Source: Flavobacterium sp. LMO8 (GTDB lineage: Bacteria > Bacteroidota > Bacteroidia > Flavobacteriales > Flavobacteriaceae). From it: DNA of 64,000 bases. Below, one piece after another: positions 54,639 through 64,000 of this stretch. The position numbers and the translations under genes are program-made. Under the pieces are notes generated by a model. It worked only from the letters and a program-made list of their open reading frames with translations, was not told where the DNA came from and did not search any database. How positions within the stretch are numbered: position 1 is the stretch's first letter; each line of letters starts with the position of its first letter. The DNA is taken from contig NZ_WIBJ01000030.1 in the NCBI RefSeq assembly GCF_009495755.1, positions 124,001-188,000 of the forward strand, written 5' to 3'.

Positions 54639-55340
54639 CTATTTTTTCAAAATTGTATTTAAAACTAAATCTTTATCTAATTTTTTAGTACAGAAAAACC
54701 AATCTTTACAGTCTAAAGTTTCATCGTTTTCCATTCTTTCTTTTGCAACACCACAAGAACCTGCGGTTGGCACAATTACATCGTCTCCAGGTCTCCAATA
54801 AGCTGGACAAGCTACTTCAAAAGCATCGGCAGTTTGTAAAGCAATTAAAGCTCTGTAAATTTCGTCAAAGTTTCTTCCAATACTTAATGGATAATATAAA
54901 ATAGTTCTAATAGTTCCTTTTGGATCTACAAAGAATACGGCTCTCACAGCTTTTGTATTGCTTTCGCCTTCCATAATCATTCCGTATTTTTTAGAAACTT
55001 CCATTGTAATGTCTTCGATTAAAGGAAATTTAACTTCGATGTTCTTCATTCCTTTGTATTCGATTTTTTCTTTAATGGTTCTTAACCATGCAATATGGCT
55101 ATACAATCCATCAACTGATAATCCTAATAATTCACAATTAGCTTCTTTAAATTGATTTTCCATGCTTGCGAAGGTCATAAATTCAGAAGTACAAACAGGA
55201 GTAAAATCGGCTGGGTGACTAAAAAAGATGACCCATTTTCCTTCATAATCTTTTGGAAAGTTGATAGTTCCTTGTGTTGTAATTGCAGTAAATTCTGGTG
55301 CTTGTTCGCCAATTCTTGGCATAAATACTTGATTTTCCAT
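54639..55340 (-). CDS. Peroxiredoxin (Prx6/archaeal-type)
   Basis: 233 residues from the ATG at 55340 (MENQVFMPRIGEQAPEFTA). The upstream start at 55391 adds a basic tail with no homology that I recognise. The peroxidatic Cys is in HPADFTPVCTSEF, followed by RTIKEKIEYKGMKNIEVKFPLIED. A C-terminal CPAYWRPGDDVIVPTAGSCG region holds possible resolving cysteines, and the protein ends DCKDWFFCTKKL. It reduces peroxides in the cytoplasm. It is divergent from the cytochrome-DUF3365 gene; the dyad at 55504 lies in the shared spacer. Confidence 0.92.
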   Translation of the reverse strand: MENQVFMPRIGEQAPEFTAITTQGTINFPKDYEGKWVIFFSHPADFTPVCTSEFMTFASMENQFKEANCELLGLSVDGLYSHIAWLRTIKEKIEYKGMKNIEVKFPLIEDITMEVSKKYGMIMEGESNTKAVRAVFFVDPKGTIRTILYYPLSIGRNFDEIYRALIALQTADAFEVACPAYWRPGDDVIVPTAGSCGVAKERMENDETLDCKDWFFCTKKLDKDLVLNTILKK

Positions 55341-55503
55341 TTTTTCTATTTTTAAAATGTTATTATTAATTTTTGATGGTACAAATTTCAATCAAAAAAA
55401 ATGTTGAAAAAGTAACAAGAGTTCCTTAGTATAATAAAATATTATTATATATTAATGTAATTATAAATTTTATCTATTTTATTATTGGTTTCTCAAATTG
55501 ATT

Positions 55504-55519
55504 TGTAACAATCGTTACA
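55504..55519. promoter_or_regulatory. Dyad site 1, TGTAAC-N4-GTTACA
   Basis: A perfect 16-base palindrome (spacer AATC). Its centre is 35.5 bases upstream of the last G of the -7 box at 55540-55547. The half-site spacing is that of Crp/Fnr-family boxes such as FNR's TTGAT-N4-ATCAA. Near-identical dyads stand at the same distance before four other units downstream. Confidence 0.7.
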
Positions 55520-55539
55520 TCGTTTTATTTGCAATTCTA

Positions 55540-55547
55540 TACATTTG
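55540..55547 (+). promoter_or_regulatory. -7 box of the cytochrome-DUF3365 gene
   Basis: TACATTTG, perfect TAnnTTTG, 19 bases before the ATG. No strong TTG at -33, consistent with an activator-dependent promoter. Confidence 0.6.
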
Positions 55548-55566
55548 ATTTTTAAATAAAATAGAG

Positions 55567-56547
55567 ATGAGATATATTGTTGCAGTAATAGTATTATTTG
55601 GTTTTGTGAGTTGCCAAAAAGATAAAAAAGTGTATAAAGAAATTCAAGATGCAAATCCAACTTCACTTCAAAATGAAATTCATGAAGGCAAAAAACTTAT
55701 GGTAACCCATTGTTATTTGTGTCATAGTCCAAATGCAGCTGAAAGCGAAGGAAGAATTGCGCCACCAATGGTAGCTATTAAAGCAAGATATATCGACAAA
55801 GAAGGTTACAACAAAGAAGAGTTTGTAAAACATGTTACAGCATTTGTTGACAATCCAACAGAAGATATAGCACTTATGTATGGAGCAGTAAAAAAACATG
55901 GTGTTATGCCAAAACAAGTTTTTCCTGAAGGAAGTGTTGAAAAAATTGCCAATTTCATGTTTGATTATCAAATTGAAGAACCGGAGTGGTTTAAAGAGCA
56001 TTGGGAAGGTCATGGCAATGAAAATTGGACACAATCGGGTAAAAAGTATGTGGAAGAAAAAAAAGAGAAAACCTATGCTGATATTGGTATAGAATATGCT
56101 TTGGGTACTAAAAAAGTATTGGGTAAAAATTTGATGGGAGCTATCCAAAAAAAAGGAACTCTCGAGGCTCTATCCTTTTGTAACATTCAAGCTATACCTT
56201 TAACAGACAGTATGTCAACTAAATTTAACGCTTCTATAAAACGTGTTTCTGATAAAAATAGAAATCCAAATAATAAAGCGAATACCGAAGAATTACAATA
56301 CATTGCTCAATTTAAGAAAGAGTTAGCTGCCAAAAAAGAAATAAAACCAGTTGTAATAGAAAAAGGAAATAAAGTTCAGTTTTATTATCCAATTGAAACC
56401 AATACCATGTGTTTGCAGTGTCATGGAAAACAAATTAAACCAGAAGTTTCAAAGCAAATTATGAAATTATATCCAAAGGATTTAGCTATTGGTTATAATG
56501 AAAGCGAAGTTCGTGGTATTTGGAGTATTACTTTTGATAAAAAATAG
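55567..56547 (+). CDS. Cytochrome c - DUF3365 fusion lipoprotein
   Basis: 326 residues. Lipobox GFVSCQK, Cys16. An N-terminal class I cytochrome c domain has the heme motif C49-x-x-C52-H53 (HCYLCHSP), with a Met ligand candidate in KKHGVMPKQVF. A second domain (about 170-326) is DUF3365/Tll0287-like with its own CxxCH at 282-286 (MCLQCHGK). So two c-type hemes are expected, anchored at the envelope facing the periplasm. It probably carries electrons or senses redox state or gas. It is the first gene under the shared dyad and lies one base before the DUF6132-like pseudogene. Confidence 0.88.
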   Translation: MRYIVAVIVLFGFVSCQKDKKVYKEIQDANPTSLQNEIHEGKKLMVTHCYLCHSPNAAESEGRIAPPMVAIKARYIDKEGYNKEEFVKHVTAFVDNPTEDIALMYGAVKKHGVMPKQVFPEGSVEKIANFMFDYQIEEPEWFKEHWEGHGNENWTQSGKKYVEEKKEKTYADIGIEYALGTKKVLGKNLMGAIQKKGTLEALSFCNIQAIPLTDSMSTKFNASIKRVSDKNRNPNNKANTEELQYIAQFKKELAAKKEIKPVVIEKGNKVQFYYPIETNTMCLQCHGKQIKPEVSKQIMKLYPKDLAIGYNESEVRGIWSITFDKK

Positions 56548-56548
56548 T

Positions 56549-56750
56549 ATGGCCAAAAAGACATATATCATTACTGGAATTGGAATTGTTGTTGGACTAC
56601 TGTTAGGATATTTATATTATTTAGAAATAGGTTGTGCGTCTGGAATGTGCCATTACTTCTAAACCCTTAAATAGTACCTTATATGGAGGAATAATGGGCG
56701 GATTGCTTTTTAGTATGATTGGTGATTTTTTTAAGAAGAAAAAGAGCTAA
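56549..56750 (+). pseudogene. DUF6132-like small membrane protein, frameshifted
   Basis: Frame one runs from ATG 56549: a membrane helix (IITGIGIVVGLLLGYLYYL) then EIGCASGMC, and meets TAA at 56660. From 56652 a second frame continues ITSKPLNSTLYGGIMGGLLFSMI to TAA at 56748. Read together they give one protein of the pattern I associate with DUF6132, GCxSGxC-x-ITSxP...GxxxGGL. The junction is where one residue (normally Pro or Ala) is expected and only one of its three bases is present, so two bases look lost (or one gained). It follows the cytochrome gene after one base. Confidence 0.7.
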
Positions 56751-56757
56751 TTTCTTG

Positions 56758-56773
56758 TGTAACAATTGTTACT
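56758..56773. promoter_or_regulatory. Dyad site 2, TGTAAC-N4-GTTACT
   Basis: Spacer AATT. The centre is again 35.5 bases before the last G of the -7 box at 56794-56801. Confidence 0.65.
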
Positions 56774-56793
56774 AAATATTTTTAAAGTTTACT

Positions 56794-56801
56794 TACATTT
56801 G
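56794..56801 (+). promoter_or_regulatory. -7 box of the small Cys protein gene
   Basis: TACATTTG, identical to the box at 55540. Its last base is four bases before the ATG at 56806, so transcription would start about on that ATG. Confidence 0.6.
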
Positions 56802-56805
56802 TTAA

Positions 56806-57126
56806 ATGAAATTCTCGGTTCACATGTTATGTTTTTACTTGTTGCTTCTGCTGACTTTGCCGTCAGTTAGAGCTATGAAAATGTTTGTGAGTCAAGAATG
56901 TCAAAATACTTGTCATAATGATGAGGCATCAAATTCAGGTTGTGAAAAAGGTAAAGTAATCATGAATTTGAACTTTAGTCCAACGCAATTTGTCTCTGAA
57001 ATTTCGCTTAAAGAAATCATTTTAATTCCCGATTTTTATACCGAAAAGGAAAAATCAAACTACGAAAAGATTTTCATCCCAAAATACCAACATTCTATTT
57101 GGCATCCGCCCAAATTTTTCATTTAA
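56806..57126 (+). CDS. Small exported Cys-containing protein, unknown function
   Basis: 106 residues. The first ATG is almost at the predicted transcription start; the next in-frame ATG at 56824 (MLCFYLLLLLTLPSVRA) is a good signal-peptide start and may be the true one. The mature part has three close cysteines, VSQECQNTCHNDEASNSGCEKGK, then NLNFSPTQFV and a C-terminal PKYQHSIWHPPKFF. The Cys/His cluster could bind metal or form a disulfide. No family is recognised. The gene lies in the dyad-controlled block. Confidence 0.7.
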   Translation: MKFSVHMLCFYLLLLLTLPSVRAMKMFVSQECQNTCHNDEASNSGCEKGKVIMNLNFSPTQFVSEISLKEIILIPDFYTEKEKSNYEKIFIPKYQHSIWHPPKFFI

Positions 57127-57188
57127 GAAATTTAATAGTTTATTTATGGTTCCTTTTTTGATAGGAACTCAACTTATAATTTTATACA

Positions 57189-58787
57189 ATGAAAAAATAT
57201 TTCATCGTGTTATTATTGACTTTTTTACAGTCATCAATAGCACAAACTACTTTTGATTATGATGTAGTTTTAACTCCGGTTTCTGTTTCAGGATTACCAG
57301 GATTGCATTCCTATGCTTTTGCGCAACATAATGGAAAATGGTTAATCATTGGCGGAAGAAAAGATGGTGTACACGCACGCCAACCTTTTAATGCGTTTCC
57401 AGATGCACAAAACAATAAGGATATTTATGTGGTAGATATTGCCACACAACAATCTTGGTCGGCTTCAGTGAATTCGCTTCCGACTGGGATTAAAGAACAA
57501 TTGCAATCGACCAACATGAATTTTTATCAAGATGGTGATGCTTTGTTTATTATTGGAGGATACGCTTATTCAACAACAGCTACCGATCATAAAACGTTCA
57601 ATAATTTGACTTCAGTTGACGTGCCTAGTTTGATAAACGCTATCATTGCAGGAACTCCAATTACATCCTATTTCAAACAAATATCAAATGACGTTTTTGC
57701 GATTACGGGAGGTCAATTAGCAAAAATTGGTACTACGTTTTATTTGGTAGGCGGTCATCGTTTTGATGGAAGATATAACCCAATGAATAACCCAACGTTT
57801 ACCCAAACGTATTCAAATGCTATCCGAAAATTTACAATTGATAATTCGGGAGCGAGTTTGAGTTATGCCAATTATGAAGAAGTTATAGATGCCGTTCATT
57901 TGCACCGACGTGATTATAATTTATTACCTCAAGTGTTTCCTGATGGCGAATTAGGGTATACGATTTCTTCAGGCGTATTTCAAATTGCGGTGGATTTACC
58001 ATTTTTATATCCAGTTGATATAAAAGCAGGAGGTTATTTTCCTCAAACGCAATTCAATCAATATTTGAGCAATTATCATAGCGGAAAGGCTTGTTTGTAT
58101 GATGCTACCAATAATAGAATGCACAATTTGTTTTTTGGAGGCATGAGTCAGTATTTCTATCAAGCTGGAAATCTAATTCAAGATAATACCGTTCCGTTCG
58201 TGAAAACCATCAGTAGAACTACTCGTTTCGCAGATGGAAGTTTGCTTGAATATCAATTACCTGTTGAAATGCCAAATTTAAAAGGCGCAGGAGCCGAATT
58301 TATCCCTAATGAGAATTTACCGCATTATTCAAATGAAGTAATTCAATTGTCGAATATTACAGCGGATGAATTCGTAATTGGACATTTATTTGGAGGAATT
58401 CAAAGTTCTTCACCTTCGGCATTTACAGATAATCAAACCAATTTAACGAGTGCTGACCCTACGGTTTATGAAGTTAAATTAGTGAAAAATCCGTTATTAA
58501 GCACGCCTCAAATAGATGGTAAAAATCCGTTTTCGTTTACGGTTTCGCCTAATCCAACATCGAATGATACAGTTAGAATTCAATTTGATATGGCTTATTC
58601 TGCTAAAGTCAATTATATAATATCTACGTTAGATGGTAAAATAGCAGAAGAAGGAGAAATCGAAGATGTAAGTGCAGGAATAAACAGTATGAACTTTAGT
58701 TTGGTCGCTGCAAATTCAGAGTTTGTTATTATAACTTTTATTTTTGATGATAAATTTTATGTGTCTCAAAAAGTAATAAAAAAGTAA
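57189..58787 (+). CDS. Type IX secreted protein with Kelch-like repeats
   Basis: 532 residues. A signal peptide ends QSSIAQ. The body has Kelch-like blades (GKWLIIGGRKDGVHA, DALFIIGGYAYS, GTTFYLVGGHRFDG, HNLFFGGMSQYFY). The last 80 residues are a type IX sorting tail: FTVSPNPTSNDTVRIQF, then DGKIAEEGEIEDVSAGINSMNF and ending KVIKK. So it is exported through the outer membrane, and the PorV-type barrel at 5828-6907 may help. A dyad or clear -7 box is not seen before it. Its ligand is unknown. Confidence 0.85.
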   Translation: MKKYFIVLLLTFLQSSIAQTTFDYDVVLTPVSVSGLPGLHSYAFAQHNGKWLIIGGRKDGVHARQPFNAFPDAQNNKDIYVVDIATQQSWSASVNSLPTGIKEQLQSTNMNFYQDGDALFIIGGYAYSTTATDHKTFNNLTSVDVPSLINAIIAGTPITSYFKQISNDVFAITGGQLAKIGTTFYLVGGHRFDGRYNPMNNPTFTQTYSNAIRKFTIDNSGASLSYANYEEVIDAVHLHRRDYNLLPQVFPDGELGYTISSGVFQIAVDLPFLYPVDIKAGGYFPQTQFNQYLSNYHSGKACLYDATNNRMHNLFFGGMSQYFYQAGNLIQDNTVPFVKTISRTTRFADGSLLEYQLPVEMPNLKGAGAEFIPNENLPHYSNEVIQLSNITADEFVIGHLFGGIQSSSPSAFTDNQTNLTSADPTVYEVKLVKNPLLSTPQIDGKNPFSFTVSPNPTSNDTVRIQFDMAYSAKVNYIISTLDGKIAEEGEIEDVSAGINSMNFSLVAANSEFVIITFIFDDKFYVSQKVIKK

Positions 58788-58835
58788 TAACTGTTAAATT
58801 AATAAAAAATTAAGAGTACTATTTCTAAAATTATA

Positions 58836-58843
58836 TATATTTG
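58836..58843 (+). promoter_or_regulatory. -7 box of the Cys/Lys-rich peptide gene
   Basis: TATATTTG, perfect, 54 bases before the ATG at 58897. No dyad lies at the matching distance. Confidence 0.45.
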
Positions 58844-58896
58844 TCATAGTACAATACAAACAAAAAAGATTAAATAACAATTTAAAAATAAATAAA

Positions 58897-59103
58897 ATGA
58901 AAAAATTAGTTTCTATTATGGCTGTTGCCGCTTTTATGTTATCAATGAATGTTAATGCTCAAGAGCCAAAACAAAAAGCTAAAAAAGAGAAAGCAAAAAC
59001 TGAAAAATCTTGCTCAACTGAAGAAAAAAAATCTTGTGGTACTGAAGCAAAATCAGGTGGATGTTGTTCTTCTAAAAAAGCTACTGAGAAAAAAGCTGAA
59101 TAG
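58897..59103 (+). CDS. Small exported Lys/Glu/Cys-rich protein
   Basis: 68 residues. The signal peptide (MKKLVSIMAVAAFMLSMNVNA) is followed by a 46-residue mature part made almost entirely of Lys, Glu, Ser, Thr, Gly and Cys. An eight-residue unit repeats, KSCSTEEK and KSCGTEAK, then GGCCSSKK: four cysteines in all. It is probably unstructured and may bind soft metals or act as a redox or thiol sink in the periplasm; this is inference. It ends in a strong terminator, upstream of cydA. Confidence 0.8.
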   Translation: MKKLVSIMAVAAFMLSMNVNAQEPKQKAKKEKAKTEKSCSTEEKKSCGTEAKSGGCCSSKKATEKKAE

Positions 59104-59125
59104 TTTTAAACTCATATTTATAAAG

Positions 59126-59154
59126 ACGCCCCGATTTTATCGGGGCGTTTTTTT
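59126..59154 (+). terminator. Terminator of the Cys/Lys-rich peptide gene
   Basis: ACGCCCCGAT and ATCGGGGCGT form a perfect stem with loop TTT, followed by TTTTTT. Confidence 0.9.
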
Positions 59155-59190
59155 ATAAAAACAATTCAACATGTGTTAAAATTTTATTTG

Positions 59191-59206
59191 TGTAACAAGC
59201 GTTACT
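59191..59206. promoter_or_regulatory. Dyad site 3 before cydA, TGTAAC-N4-GTTACT
   Basis: Spacer AAGC. The centre is 36.5 bases upstream of the last G of the cydA -7 box at 59228-59235. Confidence 0.68.
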
Positions 59207-59227
59207 TTTAAAAAGATTAACTTACAA

Positions 59228-59235
59228 TAGCTTTG
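59228..59235 (+). promoter_or_regulatory. cydA -7 box
   Basis: TAGCTTTG, perfect TAnnTTTG, 22 bases before the ATG at 59258. Confidence 0.58.
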
Positions 59236-59257
59236 TTCAACAATAAAATATATTATT

Positions 59258-60607
59258 ATGGATGTCGAAATATTAGCTCGAATTCAGTTTGCTTTCACCA
59301 TTGCTTTTCATTATATCTATCCGCCTTTAAGTATAGGAATAGGTTTGATTATGGTAATTATGGAAGGATTGTATTTAAAAACGGGCAAAAAAGAGTATGA
59401 AGTTTTAACCCGTTTTTGGTTGAAAATATTTGCTATTACTTTCGGAATTGGTGTGGCAACAGGAATTATCATGGAGTTTGAATTTGGAACCAATTGGGCA
59501 GTTTATTCGAGCTATGTTGGTGATATTTTTGGAAGTGCATTGGCAGCAGAAGGATTGTTTGCTTTCGGATTAGAAAGTACGTTTTTAGGAATTTTAATTT
59601 TTGGTTGGAATAGAGTTTCACCTAAAGTGCATTTTATTTCTACCATTGGTGTTTTCTTAGGTTCTATGTTTTCTGCAGTTTGGATTGTTGTAGCAAATAG
59701 TTGGCAACAAACTCCAGCAGGATATCATATTGTTGGTGAAGGTTTTAATGCTAGAGCCGAAGTTACCGATTTTTGGGCTATGGTTTTTAATCCGTCAAGT
59801 GTGGACCGAATTATTCATGTCTGGCAAGGTGCATTTTTAGCAGGAGCTTTCATGGTTTTGAGTGTTCATGCTTATTATATTCGAAAAGGAAAATTTGTCG
59901 AATTATCCAAAATAGCATTCAAAATAGCTTTAGTAGTAGCAACTGTAGTTTCGTTTACACAATTGATTTCTGGTCATAGTTCAGCAGATGGAGTAGCAGT
60001 AAATCAACCTGCAAAATTAGCGGCTATGGAAGGACATTACGAAAAATCAGCACCAGCAGATTTATATCTTTTAGGTTGGGTGGATAATAAAAAACAAGAA
60101 GTTACAGGTTTAGGTGTTCCCGGAGGATTATCATTTTTGGTTCATCAAGATTTTAAGGAGCCAATTATGGGATTGAATTCTTTTCCTAAAGAAGATCAAC
60201 CGAGTCAAGTAAATGCTGTTTTTCAATTTTATCACATTATGATTTCAATTGGAATGTTTTTAATTGCACTATCTTTTTACGCTTGTTTTCTATGGTGGAA
60301 AGGAAAATTATTCGAAACCAAATGGATTTTATGGATTTTTTCTTTCTCTGTTCTATTGCCTCAAATTGCTAATCAAGCAGGTTGGTTTGCTGCCGAAATG
60401 GGACGTCAACCTTGGATAGTTTACGGACATTTGAGAACAAGTGAAGGTTTTTCACAAGAAGTTTCGGCCAATCAAATTGTATTTTCATTGATTTTGTTTT
60501 TAGTTGTTTATTCGCTACTATTTCTCTTGTTTTTGTATTCTTTAAATAAGAAAATCAAACACGGTCCTTATGAAGATGAAGCTCAAAATCAATTAGAAAC
60601 TATTTAA
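59258..60607 (+). CDS. cydA: Cytochrome bd quinol oxidase subunit I
   Basis: 449 residues, the shorter (short Q-loop) version compared with about 520 in E. coli. Heme ligands are in place: His18 (FAFTIAFHYIYPP), His187 (RIIHVWQGAF) and Met328 (FYHIMISIGM). The diheme-site glutamates are at about 98 and 106 (EGLFAFGLEST), and GRQPW is at 382-386. The subunit oxidises quinol and reduces oxygen with high affinity. It is cotranscribed with cydB 11 bases downstream and preceded by the shared dyad. Confidence 0.97.
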   Translation: MDVEILARIQFAFTIAFHYIYPPLSIGIGLIMVIMEGLYLKTGKKEYEVLTRFWLKIFAITFGIGVATGIIMEFEFGTNWAVYSSYVGDIFGSALAAEGLFAFGLESTFLGILIFGWNRVSPKVHFISTIGVFLGSMFSAVWIVVANSWQQTPAGYHIVGEGFNARAEVTDFWAMVFNPSSVDRIIHVWQGAFLAGAFMVLSVHAYYIRKGKFVELSKIAFKIALVVATVVSFTQLISGHSSADGVAVNQPAKLAAMEGHYEKSAPADLYLLGWVDNKKQEVTGLGVPGGLSFLVHQDFKEPIMGLNSFPKEDQPSQVNAVFQFYHIMISIGMFLIALSFYACFLWWKGKLFETKWILWIFSFSVLLPQIANQAGWFAAEMGRQPWIVYGHLRTSEGFSQEVSANQIVFSLILFLVVYSLLFLLFLYSLNKKIKHGPYEDEAQNQLETI

Positions 60608-60618
60608 ATTAGTAAAGT

Positions 60619-61656
60619 ATGGAAACATTTTTAGGCATCGATTATCCAACACTTTGGTATTTAGTAGTGGGACTATTATTTTCAGGTTATGCCATCTTAG
60701 AAGGATTTGATTATGGAGCAGGAGCATGGCATTTGTTTTTTAGAAAAGATGAAAGCCGTCGAATTGCCATTAATGCAATTGGACCACTTTGGGATGCCAA
60801 TCAAGTTTGGTTAATTATTGGTGGAGGAGCTTTATTTGCTGGTTTTCCTGTAATGTACGCAACAATGCTTTCGGCCATGTATATTCCGTTTATGTTGTTC
60901 TTAATGTTATTGGTTTTACGTTCATCGGCTATAAAATTTAGAAGTGCAGAAACCATGTTGTGGTGGCGAAAAACATGGGATATTATTTATTCATTATCTA
61001 ATATTTTAATCGCTTTTTTGTTAGGAGTAGTTTTAGGAAATGTGCTGCAAGGATTTGAATTAGGAGAAAATTACAGCTATAAAGGTGGTGTTTTCTTTTC
61101 ATTTCTTAGTCCATATGCTATTATGGTTGGATTAACAACACTTTCTATTTTTATGACTCAAGGCGCTATTTTTCTTTTATTAAAAACCGAAGGAAGATTG
61201 CATACTCGATTAACATTTTTGTTAAAAAAAGGAATGATTTTCTTTATCGTTAGTTTTTCAATAACTTCATTATACACGTTAGTGTTTATACCTGGTGTAA
61301 CAGATAATTTTAGGGAAAACCCGCTATTTTTTATAATTCCTATTTTATCATTTTTGGCTGTTGCCAATGTACCTCGATTGGTTTCTAAAAAGAAATACTT
61401 TCAAGCATTAGTCTTTTCTTCCTTAACTATGGCTTTTTTGTTAATGTTAGTGGCGTTTCAGTTATATCCCACTTTATTAATTTCGACAATTGATCCAAAA
61501 TACAGTATTACGATTTATAATGCAGCATCTTCGCAAAAATCTTTAGGAATTATGTTAACCATCGTTTTAATTGGTGCTCCGTTATTAGCGGCTTACTTTA
61601 TATTTCTCTACAAAACATTCAATGGAAAAGTAAAACTTGATGATACAAGTTATTAA
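60619..61656 (+). CDS. cydB: Cytochrome bd quinol oxidase subunit II
   Basis: 345 residues and eight to nine hydrophobic helices. The CydB family opening YLVVGLLFSGYAILEGFDYGAGAWHL and the following GPLWDANQVWLIIGGGALFAGFP are unmistakable. It forms the structural partner of CydA in the inner membrane and makes the oxygen-reaching proton path. It is separated from cydA by 11 bases and ends in a strong terminator. No cydX-like or cydDC gene is visible in the window. Confidence 0.97.
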   Translation: METFLGIDYPTLWYLVVGLLFSGYAILEGFDYGAGAWHLFFRKDESRRIAINAIGPLWDANQVWLIIGGGALFAGFPVMYATMLSAMYIPFMLFLMLLVLRSSAIKFRSAETMLWWRKTWDIIYSLSNILIAFLLGVVLGNVLQGFELGENYSYKGGVFFSFLSPYAIMVGLTTLSIFMTQGAIFLLLKTEGRLHTRLTFLLKKGMIFFIVSFSITSLYTLVFIPGVTDNFRENPLFFIIPILSFLAVANVPRLVSKKKYFQALVFSSLTMAFLLMLVAFQLYPTLLISTIDPKYSITIYNAASSQKSLGIMLTIVLIGAPLLAAYFIFLYKTFNGKVKLDDTSY

Positions 61657-61671
61657 TACATATTTAATAAG

Positions 61672-61700
61672 AACGCCTCGAAAATATCGGGGCGTTTTTT
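61672..61700 (+). terminator. cydAB terminator
   Basis: AACGCCTCGA and the TCGGGGCGTT arm pair (one mismatch) with loop AAATA, followed by TTTT. The loop and arms resemble those at 59126-59154. Confidence 0.82.
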
Positions 61701-61701
61701 A

Positions 61702-61717
61702 TGTAACAAATGTTGCT
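61702..61717. promoter_or_regulatory. Dyad site 4, TGTAAC-N4-GTTGCT
   Basis: Spacer AAAT; one half-site deviates (GTTGCT). The centre is 37.5 bases upstream of the last G of the -7-like box at 61739-61747, which has one extra base (TA-N3-TTTG). Confidence 0.5.
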
Positions 61718-61738
61718 GTAGCACAAATACATAACAAC

Positions 61739-61747
61739 TAAATTTGA
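61739..61747 (+). promoter_or_regulatory. -7-like box of the SQR-like gene
   Basis: TAAAATTTG, TA-N3-TTTG instead of TA-N2-TTTG, 18 bases before the ATG. Confidence 0.4.
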
Positions 61748-61765
61748 CTTATTAAAATAATCAAA

Positions 61766-63226
61766 ATGTCAAAAATAGTTATACTAGGAGCAGGAATTTC
61801 GGGTCATACCGCTGCTGCACATTTAAGAAGAAAATTAGGAAAAGAACATGAAGTTTTAGTAGTGTCTCCCAATAGAAATTACCAATGGGTGCCATCCAAT
61901 ATTTGGGTAGGAATTGGAAGAATGAAATCTAAGGAAGTAATATTTCCTTTAGAACCACTATATAAAAGAAAAGGAATAGGATACAAACAAGCCAAAGCCG
62001 TTTCCTTTCATCCAGAAGGTGATAGTTCAGAAGCAAAACCGTATATTTTAGTAGAAGGTGTTTTTGGCGATAGCTTAGGTAAACAAGAAAAAGTAACCTA
62101 CGATTATTTAATTAATGCTACAGGTCCAAAACTTGCTTTTGATATGACCGAAGGATTAGTGCCTGAAACTAATAAAGTGTATTCAGTTTGTACGTATGAT
62201 CATGCTGAAAAAGCTTCGGAAGCACTTCACAAATTAATTAACCAACTAAAAAAATCAGATAAAAAATCGAAAATTTTAATCGGAACAGGTCATGCAAAAG
62301 CCACTTGTCAAGGTGCTGCGTTCGAATATATTTTGAATGTAGAAAAAGAATTGCAAAAGTTTGGTGTTCGTGATAAAGCTGAAATTACTTGGATTTCGAA
62401 TGAATACGAATTAGGTGATTTTGGAATGGATGGCATGTTGATGGAATACAACGGTTTCAATATGAAATCTAAAGATATGGTGGAAATGATTTTTGAAGAT
62501 CGTGACATCAAATGGATTTTAGGAGCTGGAGTTACTAAAGTAGAAGATGGATTAGTACATTATGAAAATTTAGAAGGAGAATATAAAACAGAAGCCTTCG
62601 ATTTTGGTATGCTAATTCCCGCTTTTTCAGGACATGGTTTTCAAGCGTATGACAAAGACGGGCAAAATATTACCGAAAAATTATTCAGAGGTTTTATGGT
62701 AGTGGATGCCGATTATACACCAAGACCTTATGAAGAATGGACGGTTCAAGATTGGCCAGAAACTTATCAAAATCCGAGTTATAAAAATATTTTTGCACCC
62801 GGAATTGCTTTTGCACCGCCACATACCATTTCAAAACCACGAAAAAGTAAAAACGGGACCGAAATTTTTCCAGCACCACCAAGAACTGGAATGCCTTCTG
62901 GAATTACAGCAAAATTAGTAGCAGATAACATTATTGATTCCATTAAATCAGGAAAAGAATCCTTGCATCACAAAGGTTCTATGGGGAATATGGGCGCAGC
63001 TTGTATCGCATCAGCGGGTTACGGAATGACACAAGGAAGTGGTGTAAGTATTACAACCTATCCAATTGTTCCTGATTATAAAAAATATCCAAATACTGGT
63101 GGAAGAGATATCAAAAAAACTTTCGGAGATATTGGTTTAGCAGGTCATTGGGTGAAATTATCTCTGCACTACGCTTTCCTTTACAAAGCAAAAATGAAAC
63201 CATTTTGGTGGTTAATCCCTGAATAA
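61766..63226 (+). CDS. Sulfide:quinone-oxidoreductase-like flavoprotein
   Basis: 486 residues. FAD-binding GxGxxG opens the protein (ILGAGISGHTAAAHL). Three cysteines stand where SQR has its redox cysteines: C142 (VCTYDHAEKA), C181 (ATCQGAAFEY) and C413 (ACIASAGYG). The C-terminus (HWVKLSLHYAFLYKAKMKPFWWL) is amphipathic and aromatic, as in membrane-bound SQR. It would move electrons from sulfide or a thiol to quinone, next to the bd oxidase. The substrate is inferred; a related quinone reductase is the alternative. A 43-residue gene follows after about 50 bases. Confidence 0.85.
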   Translation: MSKIVILGAGISGHTAAAHLRRKLGKEHEVLVVSPNRNYQWVPSNIWVGIGRMKSKEVIFPLEPLYKRKGIGYKQAKAVSFHPEGDSSEAKPYILVEGVFGDSLGKQEKVTYDYLINATGPKLAFDMTEGLVPETNKVYSVCTYDHAEKASEALHKLINQLKKSDKKSKILIGTGHAKATCQGAAFEYILNVEKELQKFGVRDKAEITWISNEYELGDFGMDGMLMEYNGFNMKSKDMVEMIFEDRDIKWILGAGVTKVEDGLVHYENLEGEYKTEAFDFGMLIPAFSGHGFQAYDKDGQNITEKLFRGFMVVDADYTPRPYEEWTVQDWPETYQNPSYKNIFAPGIAFAPPHTISKPRKSKNGTEIFPAPPRTGMPSGITAKLVADNIIDSIKSGKESLHHKGSMGNMGAACIASAGYGMTQGSGVSITTYPIVPDYKKYPNTGGRDIKKTFGDIGLAGHWVKLSLHYAFLYKAKMKPFWWLIPE

Positions 63227-63278
63227 AATTAAGGGATAAACTTAAAAAAAGGTTAATTCCTGAATAAATTTTAAAATT

Positions 63279-63410
63279 ATGACACAAAGAATATCAAATG
63301 CACAGCGTTCCAAAATGCAAAATCCATTGATTCAATTATTCAAATTCTTTTATTTAAACATTAGAATTTTAAAAATTGTTGCAGGTGGTCACGGAGGAAC
63401 AAGAAAGTAA
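63279..63410 (+). CDS. 43-residue protein, unknown function
   Basis: The frame runs from the ATG at 63279 to TAA at 63408-63410. MTQRISNAQRSKMQNPL is basic, then LIQLFKFFYLNIRILKIV is a hydrophobic, probably amphipathic membrane helix, and the end AGGHGGTRK holds a Gly/His motif. It is too short for standard gene calling, but codon use and the position 52 bases after the flavoprotein gene, ahead of the terminators, support a real gene. It may be a small membrane partner of the flavoprotein. I recall similar tiny proteins in other flavobacteria, not firmly. Confidence 0.6.
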   Translation: MTQRISNAQRSKMQNPLIQLFKFFYLNIRILKIVAGGHGGTRK

Positions 63411-63455
63411 TAATCATTTTGAAGATGATGATTGTTTTTAGTTTTATTGGTTAGT

Positions 63456-63483
63456 AAAAGAGCACCTGAAGAGGTGCTCTTTT
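63456..63483 (+). terminator. Terminator after the SQR-like unit
   Basis: AAAAGAGCACCT and AGGTGCTCTTTT form a perfect 12-base stem with loop GAAG. A weaker hairpin with a T-run lies just before it (about 63412-63440). Confidence 0.88.
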
Positions 63484-63487
63484 CATT

Positions 63488-63503
63488 TGTAACAATTGTC
63501 ACT
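63488..63503. promoter_or_regulatory. Dyad site 5a, TGTAAC-N4-GTCACT
   Basis: Spacer AATT; the right half deviates by one base. Its centre is 22 bases upstream of site 5b, two helical turns. Confidence 0.5.
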
Positions 63504-63509
63504 TCGTTA

Positions 63510-63525
63510 TGTAACTCTTGTTACC
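63510..63525. promoter_or_regulatory. Dyad site 5b, TGTAAC-N4-GTTACC
   Basis: Spacer TCTT. The centre is 36.5 bases upstream of the last G of the -7 box at 63547-63554. Confidence 0.62.
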
Positions 63526-63546: not shown

Positions 63547-63554
63547 TACATTTG
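63547..63554 (+). promoter_or_regulatory. -7 box of the TolC gene
   Basis: TACATTTG, identical to those at 55540 and 56794, 27 bases before the ATG at 63582. Confidence 0.58.
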
Positions 63555-63581: not shown

Positions 63582-64000
63582 ATGAAAAAAGTCAATTTAT
63601 TAATCGTATTAGGAATGGTAACTGGTGCTGCTTTTGCACAAGATACTCTGACGATTTCAAAAAATGATTTGTTACAAAAAGTCACTGAAAATAACCTACA
63701 AATCAAAGTGGCAGAAAAATCATTTCAATCGGCTAAAGCGGATTATCGTCAATCGAATGCACTCTTTTTGCCCAACATTAATGTGTCGCACACAGGAATT
63801 TCTACAACTAATCCTTTAATGGCTTTTGGTTCGAAATTAAATCAGGAAATTTTAACTGCTTCTGATTTTAATCCAGCGTTGTTGAATGACCCAGATGTAA
63901 CTCAAAACTTCGCCACTAAAATCGAAGTACAGCAGCCTCTTTTTAATTTAGATGGTTTATATGGAAGACAAGCCGCTAAAGCAAAAATGGACGCATTTCA
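63582..64000 (+). CDS. TolC-family outer-membrane efflux protein, 3' truncated by window edge
   Basis: The first 139 codons are visible. The signal peptide (MKKVNLLIVLGMVTGAAFA) ends AFAQ. The mature part begins TISKNDLLQKVTENNLQIKVAEKSFQSAKADYRQSNALFLPNINVS, the standard first helix and strand of an outer-membrane efflux protein, and continues with FNLDGLYGRQAAKAK. It forms a trimeric channel with an adaptor and inner-membrane pump, probably encoded just outside the window. Two tandem dyads precede it, so it is under the same control as cydAB and the SQR-like gene. Confidence 0.88.
   Translation, partial: MKKVNLLIVLGMVTGAAFAQDTLTISKNDLLQKVTENNLQIKVAEKSFQSAKADYRQSNALFLPNINVSHTGISTTNPLMAFGSKLNQEILTASDFNPALLNDPDVTQNFATKIEVQQPLFNLDGLYGRQAAKAKMDAF

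Follow-up and report, generated by a model that had tools for sequence, protein, structure and literature searches.

A promoter-spaced dyad before sulfur and respiratory genes in Flavobacterium sp. LMO8 and its candidate Crp/Fnr-family activator

Dyads and promoters in the window

The window analyzed here is a 64,000-nucleotide stretch of the Flavobacterium sp. LMO8 genome (assembly GCF_009495755.1, contig NZ_WIBJ01000030.1, positions 124,001 to 188,000, forward strand). Toward its end, genes for a DUF3365-type lipoprotein, a small Cys-containing protein, the cytochrome bd oxidase CydAB, an SQR-like flavoprotein, and a TolC-like efflux protein are each preceded by a copy of the dyad TGTAAC-N4-GTTACA (Table 1). 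The subject of this study is this dyad, its distance from the promoter, and its candidate regulator, a Crp/Fnr-family protein encoded next to an SQR gene elsewhere in the genome (hereafter the SQR-linked Crp).

A preliminary description of this DNA had placed six copies of the dyad here, and a pattern search of the window found every one of them. When up to two mismatches were allowed, the window contained 16 copies compared to 3.32 expected (standard deviation 1.75), and the maximum among 100 shuffles was 9. A further dyad at 55824 lies within the DUF3365 gene without a -7 box and is probably a chance occurrence.

Five of the dyads are followed by a -7 box of the form TAnnTTTG, and the dyad centre lies 35.5 or 36.5 bases from the last base of the box. 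Four of the distances given in the preliminary description stood, and the 37.5 reported for the dyad at 61702 was corrected to 36.5 on remeasuring. In F. johnsoniae, the last base of the -7 element is at -5, according to the part of PMC6847099 used here. Since the last base of each box was taken as -5 on this authority, the five promoter dyads are centred at -40.5 or -41.5, the class II position overlapping the -35/-33 region. The earlier proposal of class II placement near -41.5 thus agrees with the predicted -7 boxes.

Table 1. Predicted operators and the genes that they precede in the window
Feature	Position	Strand	Details
Dyad TGTAACAATCGTTACA, perfect	55504..55519	+	Predicted operator of the DUF3365 gene; -7 box TACATTTG at 55540-55547, spacing 35.5
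Lipoprotein, 326 aa, cytochrome c-like part and Tll0287-like (DUF3365) domain	55567..56547	+	Pfam PF11845 7e-23, Cytochrom_C weak
Dyad TGTAACAATTGTTACT	56758..56773	+	-7 box TACATTTG at 56794-56801, spacing 35.5
Small Cys-containing protein, 106 aa	56806..57126	+	Without Pfam or NCBIfam match
Dyad TGTAACAAGCGTTACT	59191..59206	+	Predicted operator of cydAB; -7 box TAGCTTTG at 59228-59235, spacing 36.5
cydA, cytochrome bd oxidase subunit I, 449 aa	59258..60607	+	Pfam PF01654 3e-161
cydB, cytochrome bd oxidase subunit II, 345 aa	60619..61656	+	Pfam PF02322 4e-89
Dyad TGTAACAAATGTTGCT, 2 mismatches	61702..61717	+	Predicted operator of the SQR-like gene; -7 box TAAATTTG at 61739-61746, spacing 36.5
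SQR-like flavoprotein, 486 aa	61766..63226	+	Pfam PF07992 2e-10
Auxiliary dyad TGTAACAATTGTCACT, 2 mismatches	63488..63503	+	22 bases upstream of the 63510 dyad; 58.5 from the box
Dyad TGTAACTCTTGTTACC	63510..63525	+	Predicted operator of the TolC-like efflux operon; -7 box TACATTTG at 63547-63554, spacing 36.5
TolC-like outer membrane efflux protein, running off the window	63582..64000	+	Translation; Pfam OEP

The 486-aa SQR-like protein matched the type III SQR model of NCBIfam at 9e-15, below the model cut-off. Beyond the window, the TolC-like gene is followed by HlyD-type and RND (AcrB-type) genes (Pfam HlyD and ACR_tran). The -7 box of the small Cys protein gene ends 5 bases ahead of its ATG; because this interval is so short, translation would have to begin at a later start codon for the transcript to have a leader. 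No homologue of this 106-aa protein was found among the 80 Crp loci described below.

The dyad and the SQR-linked Crp in the genome and in relatives

The Flavobacterium sp. LMO8 genome (2.735 Mb, 33 contigs) contains 30 dyads with zero or one mismatch, and all were read with their surroundings. A TAnnTTT element was present at 35.5 or 36.5 bases in 11 of the 30, compared to a total of 19 over 48 other spacings, or 0.4 each (Poisson P about 1e-9). These two spacings were fixed after remeasuring; for 35.5-37.5, the full range of the preliminary description, P was about 7e-8. Outside the window, 7 of 25 dyads had a box at 35.5 or 36.5. A dyad equally common at random distances, named beforehand as the outcome that would speak against the proposal, is not what the genome scan returned.

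Besides four window genes, the 11 spaced dyads precede genes for SQR-like proteins of 416 and 400 aa, a lactamase-rhodanese protein, a thioredoxin-rhodanese unit, Thioredoxin_9, DUF983, and ccoS. The YeeE/YedE pair has a weaker or differently spaced site with its box at 33.5, and a gene for a small heavy-metal-type protein has a site at 36.5 with two mismatches. A blind search for the dyad plus box added one site, whose gene is rhodanese-like by sequence. The GTGAC version of the dyad plus box was not found in this genome.

The genome contains three Crp/Fnr genes above the Pfam cut-off and one below. The preliminary description had called for a Crp/Fnr gene whose regulon is predicted by the same motif, and the SQR-linked crp answers to this. 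It lies outside the window in an SQR-crp-TauE operon (C5:164877-165506, 210 aa), and two of the five perfect dyads of the genome flank this operon, one before SQR and one before the lactamase-rhodanese gene after TauE. The protein belongs to the Crp/Fnr superfamily (PF13545, 35 bits against a cut-off of 27), and close relatives contain both PF00027 and PF13545. Its best sequence match in the PDB was 3DV8, a Crp/Fnr protein of Eubacterium rectale (3.7e-16). In Flavobacterium celericrescens, a relative in culture, the Crp shows 97% identity to the SQR-linked Crp of LMO8.

The surroundings of this Crp were compared in 80 loci, the best 80 of at least 585 confirmed relatives, with fetched flanks of up to 7 kb. 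At least one sulfur gene was present in 74 of the 80 loci: lactamase-rhodanese in 58, TauE in 56, rhodanese in 53, SQR in 12, YeeE in 10, and YedE in 8 (tblastn, E 1e-6; paralogues not separated). A DUF3365-type match was found in 20 loci and a CydA match in 10. The loci gave 268 dyad hits, counted on both strands. Of the exact GTAACN4GTTAC dyads, 65 had the box at gap 22 and no other gap occurred more than twice, and 59 permuted dyads gave at most 4 at gaps 21-23. With up to two mismatches, 93 full-box sites were found (90 at 36.5, two at 35.5, and one at 37.5), whereas 60 sampled permutations of the dyad averaged 0.45 sites and never exceeded 7.

The first gene downstream of these 93 sites was TauE-like in 32 cases, lactamase-rhodanese in 26, DUF983 in 9, rhodanese in 3, the SQR-like 486-aa type in 3, DUF3365 in 2, CydA in 1, and another gene in 17, among which four look TolC-like and one encodes a peroxiredoxin with its own dyad and box (L186). 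DUF983 genes with a dyad directly upstream are recurrent (L030:4531-4944, L105:6618-7010, and nine further loci among the 80). SulP-like transporter genes, named by sequence, follow the dyad or crp in L085, L086, L088, L105, L107, L108, and L110.

The recognition helix of the SQR-linked Crp reads SRVVISR, with R180, V181 (residue 183 of the protein itself), and R185 in CRP numbering, for which the helix was aligned by eye to that of CRP. In the available text of Rodionov et al. 2005 (PMC1274295), CRP positions 180 and 181 are tied to bases of the motif, and HcpR2, with Pro181, has the motif GTAACnnnnGTTAC. By this published code, the predicted R180/V181 helix fits GTAAC. The 80 loci contain 85 Crp copies, 77 of the RVR type (Val181) and 8 of the RER type (Glu181). 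Among gap-22 dyads, GTGAC half-sites made up 4 of 126 in RVR-only loci and 8 of 26 where an RER copy is present (Fisher P 8e-5), and the three RER-only loci had just two hybrid sites. The E181 copies with GTGAC-N4-GTCAC sites may represent a natural specificity switch within this Crp subfamily. The GTGAC-N4-GTCAC dyad occurred in 7 of 56 genomes, and LMO8 is not one of the seven. In G057 and G048 (L105:11215-11835 and L109:5192-5934), an E181 Crp copy ends beside such a dyad at the same promoter distance.

Conserved cysteines, as in cysteine-based persulfide sensors, are present in the protein. Cys77 was found in all 25 aligned loci, in 5 of 5 further loci, and in 85 of 85 copies of the 80 loci; the pair Cys83-Cys84 was found in 27 of 30 loci and 78 of 85 copies. 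The SQR-linked Crp has no N-terminal cysteines and thus not the N-terminal cluster of FNR, and its SRVVISR helix is not the E209-type helix of FNR.

An orthologue of the SQR-linked Crp, defined by at least 49% identity (a cut chosen by eye), was present in 24 of 146 genomes of the order (30 loci). At least two genomes below this cut, G001 and G016, also have a Crp with an RVV helix. The search for the dyad plus box covered 60 of these genomes: all 24 that have the orthologue, and 36 that do not. The exact dyad with a box at gap 19-24 was found in 15 of the 24 compared to 4 of the 36 (Fisher P 4e-5), and within the genus in 4 of 4 genomes with the orthologue compared to 2 of 12 without it (P 0.008). 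When the gap was left free between 6 and 36 in the 24 genomes, 37 of 47 matches fell at 21-23.

Downstream genes of the 45 matches were read in 30 loci, of which L097 had no open frame. The site also stands before TolC-like genes in eight genomes other than LMO8 (G026, G110, G066, G052, G144, G081, G061, and G114; besides the LMO8 gene, three of the nine TolC-like genes were checked by Pfam), and in G066 and G081 an SQR-like gene lies just upstream of the TolC-like gene, as in the window. The cydA site was found in 4 of 7 close orthologues: that of LMO8, G052, G130 (with an incomplete box), and G105. The cydA of G047 has no site, and this genome has no Crp orthologue. Among distant cydA homologues, 2 of 11 had weak site candidates. 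For the SQR-like 486-aa protein (best 24 of 55 genomes with a match), a dyad with up to two mismatches stood 36.5 bases from a box-like element in 10 of 24 loci, LMO8 included, and a full TAnnTTTG was present in 5. For DUF3365 (best 30 of 51 genomes with a match), the site was found in 7 of 30 loci, LMO8 included, with a full box in 4; one of these sites (L277) precedes a match that begins at residue 166. None of 100 permuted dyads gave a site at the SQR-like and DUF3365 loci under the strict rule.

Regulator, signal, and rival explanations

Because the same site recurs at a fixed distance before sulfur genes here and in relatives, one Crp/Fnr regulator is likely. Dyad spacing, recurrence, and crp linkage support the Crp/Fnr-family activator predicted in the preliminary description, and activation is expected because the dyad occupies the class II activator position and a good -7 box follows. 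We therefore consider it probable that the five window dyads are class II operators of the SQR-linked Crp, which would drive sulfide/persulfide detoxification and sulfide-tolerant respiration. The recognition helices of the dimer (R180, V181, and R185) would bind the GTAAC half-sites, and the bound Crp would recruit RNA polymerase beside the -7 box. The gene set of a sulfide regulon is present (SQR, a persulfide dioxygenase-like protein, sulfur transport, and rhodanese), with the names SQR, persulfide dioxygenase, and sulfite exporter resting on domains, and on account of this set the signal is taken to be sulfide or persulfide. Sulfide or sulfane sulfur might be read by Cys77 together with the pair Cys83-Cys84, a weaker proposal. 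Once the regulon is induced, SQR would transfer electrons from sulfide to quinone. Persulfides would be removed by the lactamase-rhodanese protein together with rhodaneses and thioredoxins, transport of oxidised or sulfane sulfur would fall to TauE and YeeE/YedE, and cydAB would provide an oxidase resistant to sulfide poisoning. Cytochrome bd is described as sulfide-resistant in the part of PMC8148161 used here.

The preliminary description assigned the whole block to one activator. This is supported for the five promoters and too wide for the rest, since a Kelch-like gene at 57189 and a short secreted-looking ORF upstream of cydA (58897-59103) have no dyads of their own. The block is part of the regulon, and the sulfur core (SQR-crp-TauE, lactamase-rhodanese, YeeE/YedE, thioredoxins, and rhodaneses) lies outside the window. 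The ORF at 58897 ends in a Cys-rich and Lys-rich tail, CSTEEKKSCG...GGCCSSKK. A 1-Cys peroxiredoxin gene (54639-55391, minus strand) is divergent from the DUF3365 gene and lacks its own box at the dyad spacing.

Several observations weigh against this assignment. The cydA box TAGCTTTG contains a G where F. johnsoniae boxes almost never do, G being virtually absent at positions 3-4 of its -7 elements in the available text of PMC6847099. The ccoS site (C2:19786) fits FNR territory. The pair Cys83-Cys84 is lost in 3 of 30 loci and 7 of 85 copies. The reversed patterns used as controls also gave some matches, 3 compared to 45, and 12 compared to 47 with a free gap. The exact dyad plus box is missing in 9 of the 24 orthologue genomes and present in 4 of the 36 without an orthologue, two of them within the genus, and that of G091 precedes a rhodanese-like gene. 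Three of the seven close cydA orthologues have no site, and two of their genomes (G114 and G071) have the Crp. Sites at the SQR-like (10/24) and DUF3365 (7/30) genes occur in a minority of relatives, where the genes that lack one may sit within operons.

The SQR-linked Crp could be the regulator and yet answer general thiol or disulfide stress instead of sulfide, which we judge unlikely, though the least so of the alternatives. Cysteine sensors are often promiscuous, and the gene set includes thioredoxins, the RND pump, and, in L186, the peroxiredoxin homologue with its own site. However, the genes most often linked to crp, lactamase-rhodanese, TauE, and rhodanese, belong to the set that answers sulfide in Acinetobacter baumannii, as described in the relevant part of PMC7315123.

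A second alternative is that the FNR of this organism reads the dyads and that the block is an O2-responsive respiratory regulon. The N-terminal part of this FNR (225 aa, HTH at C2:16669-16887, beside fixI-ccoS-ccoN) contains a CxxC, and FNR models match the protein; cydAB is an FNR-type target elsewhere. One-mismatch dyads lie between fnr and fixI (C2:17416, L021:6717) and inside the fixI end before ccoS (C2:19786, L021:9087, box at 36.5); a link of the regulon, or of FNR, to the cbb3 oxidase is possible. However, the site tracks the SQR-linked Crp over the 80 loci, mostly before sulfur genes. The FNR helix carries E181 and lacks R180, a combination for which the code in the available text of PMC1274295 does not give GTAAC. 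FNR, and with it the O2 signal, was rejected for this misfit of the recognition helix and seems quite improbable.

Slightly less probable still is an HcpR2-type regulator with an NO signal, for which the third Crp of the genome (C30:700156-700734, L026; helix SRPTLNI) is the candidate. Cytochrome bd also guards against NO. The motif GTAACnnnnGTTAC goes with Pro181 in HcpR2 (PMC1274295, as far as its available text goes), and the third Crp has Pro181. However, it has Ile185 in place of the R185 of CRP, and no dyad with zero or one mismatch was found in the surrounding 19 kb. The SQR-linked Crp itself has V181. The core HcpR target, hcp (PF03063), was found in 0 of the 24 genomes with the Crp, while control genomes were positive, and HcpR with NO as signal was rejected on this ground despite the fit of the motif. 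Among the three signals of the preliminary description, O2, NO, and sulfide, sulfide/persulfide thus remains the best fit to the gene set. Chance dyads or repeats without a regulatory role, as the 19 of 30 genome dyads without a box at the spacing might suggest, are scarcely credible and were excluded statistically, since the spacing is fixed in this genome and in relatives and permuted dyads are near zero.

Known systems and biological meaning

Class II promoters of E. coli FNR carry a dyad with an N4 spacer centred near -41.5 and the half-site TTGAT. The sites described here differ in their GTAAC half-site and in the -7 box TAnnTTTG, and the SQR-linked Crp lacks the N-terminal Fe-S cysteine set. 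HcpR2 is close in operator: by the available text of Rodionov et al. 2005 (PMC1274295), its dyad GTAACnnnnGTTAC is the same as here, and both regulators have a residue other than Glu at 181. Residue 181 is Pro in HcpR2, whose target is hcp and whose predicted signal is NO, whereas the SQR-linked Crp has Val181 (Val in 77 of 85 copies and Glu in 8) and stands with sulfur genes, without co-occurring hcp in the 24 genomes.

The gene content is most comparable to the FisR and BigR regulons of A. baumannii. In the part of PMC7315123 used here, SQR, persulfide dioxygenase, and TauE are under FisR, YeeE-YedE-PDO2 is under BigR, and cydAB is raised by sulfide. FisR belongs to the sigma-54 activators and BigR to the ArsR repressors, whereas here a Crp/Fnr activator would act at a predicted class II site, and the gene set also takes in DUF3365, SQR-like, DUF983, and RND genes. 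The Crp of A. baumannii was found persulfidated and is thus a Crp-family protein modified by reactive sulfur; it shares about 50% identity with E. coli CRP, and that part of PMC7315123 gives it no sulfide regulon. The 3DV8 protein has cysteines near Cys77 and Cys83, as here, but E at 181 in the alignment printed in PMC6955866. PgRsp of Porphyromonas gingivalis, modelled on 3DV8, is reported there to bind heme and to control hmu and bcp, and by this published description, available in part, it differs from the SQR-linked Crp.

The fold, the operator type, and the gene functions are of known kinds, and full-text searches showed no earlier account of their combination. Whether the Crp with Cys77 and Cys83-Cys84 is a persulfide sensor and the master activator of sulfide defence across Flavobacteriia is, in our judgement, evenly balanced. 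Such a regulator would shift respiration to cytochrome bd, would add the cytochrome/Tll0287-like lipoprotein, the SQR-like protein, DUF983, and the RND pump to the defence, and would read GTAAC and GTGAC apart by its V181/E181 split. No Crp/Fnr regulator of sulfide genes in Bacteroidota was found in full-text searches of the literature, which is weak evidence of absence as most subscription papers were not covered. The sulfide/persulfide regulators met there (CstR, SqrR/BigR, FisR, MarR-type, PerR, and OxyR) belong to other protein families.

The proposal lends itself directly to testing, since the operator position is rigid, V181/E181 variation occurs naturally together with matching half-sites, and one cysteine is invariant. 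The site also suggests a likely function for DUF3365, DUF983, the 486-aa SQR-like protein, and the RND pump. If true, the proposal would explain how flavobacteria continue to respire at oxic/sulfidic interfaces.

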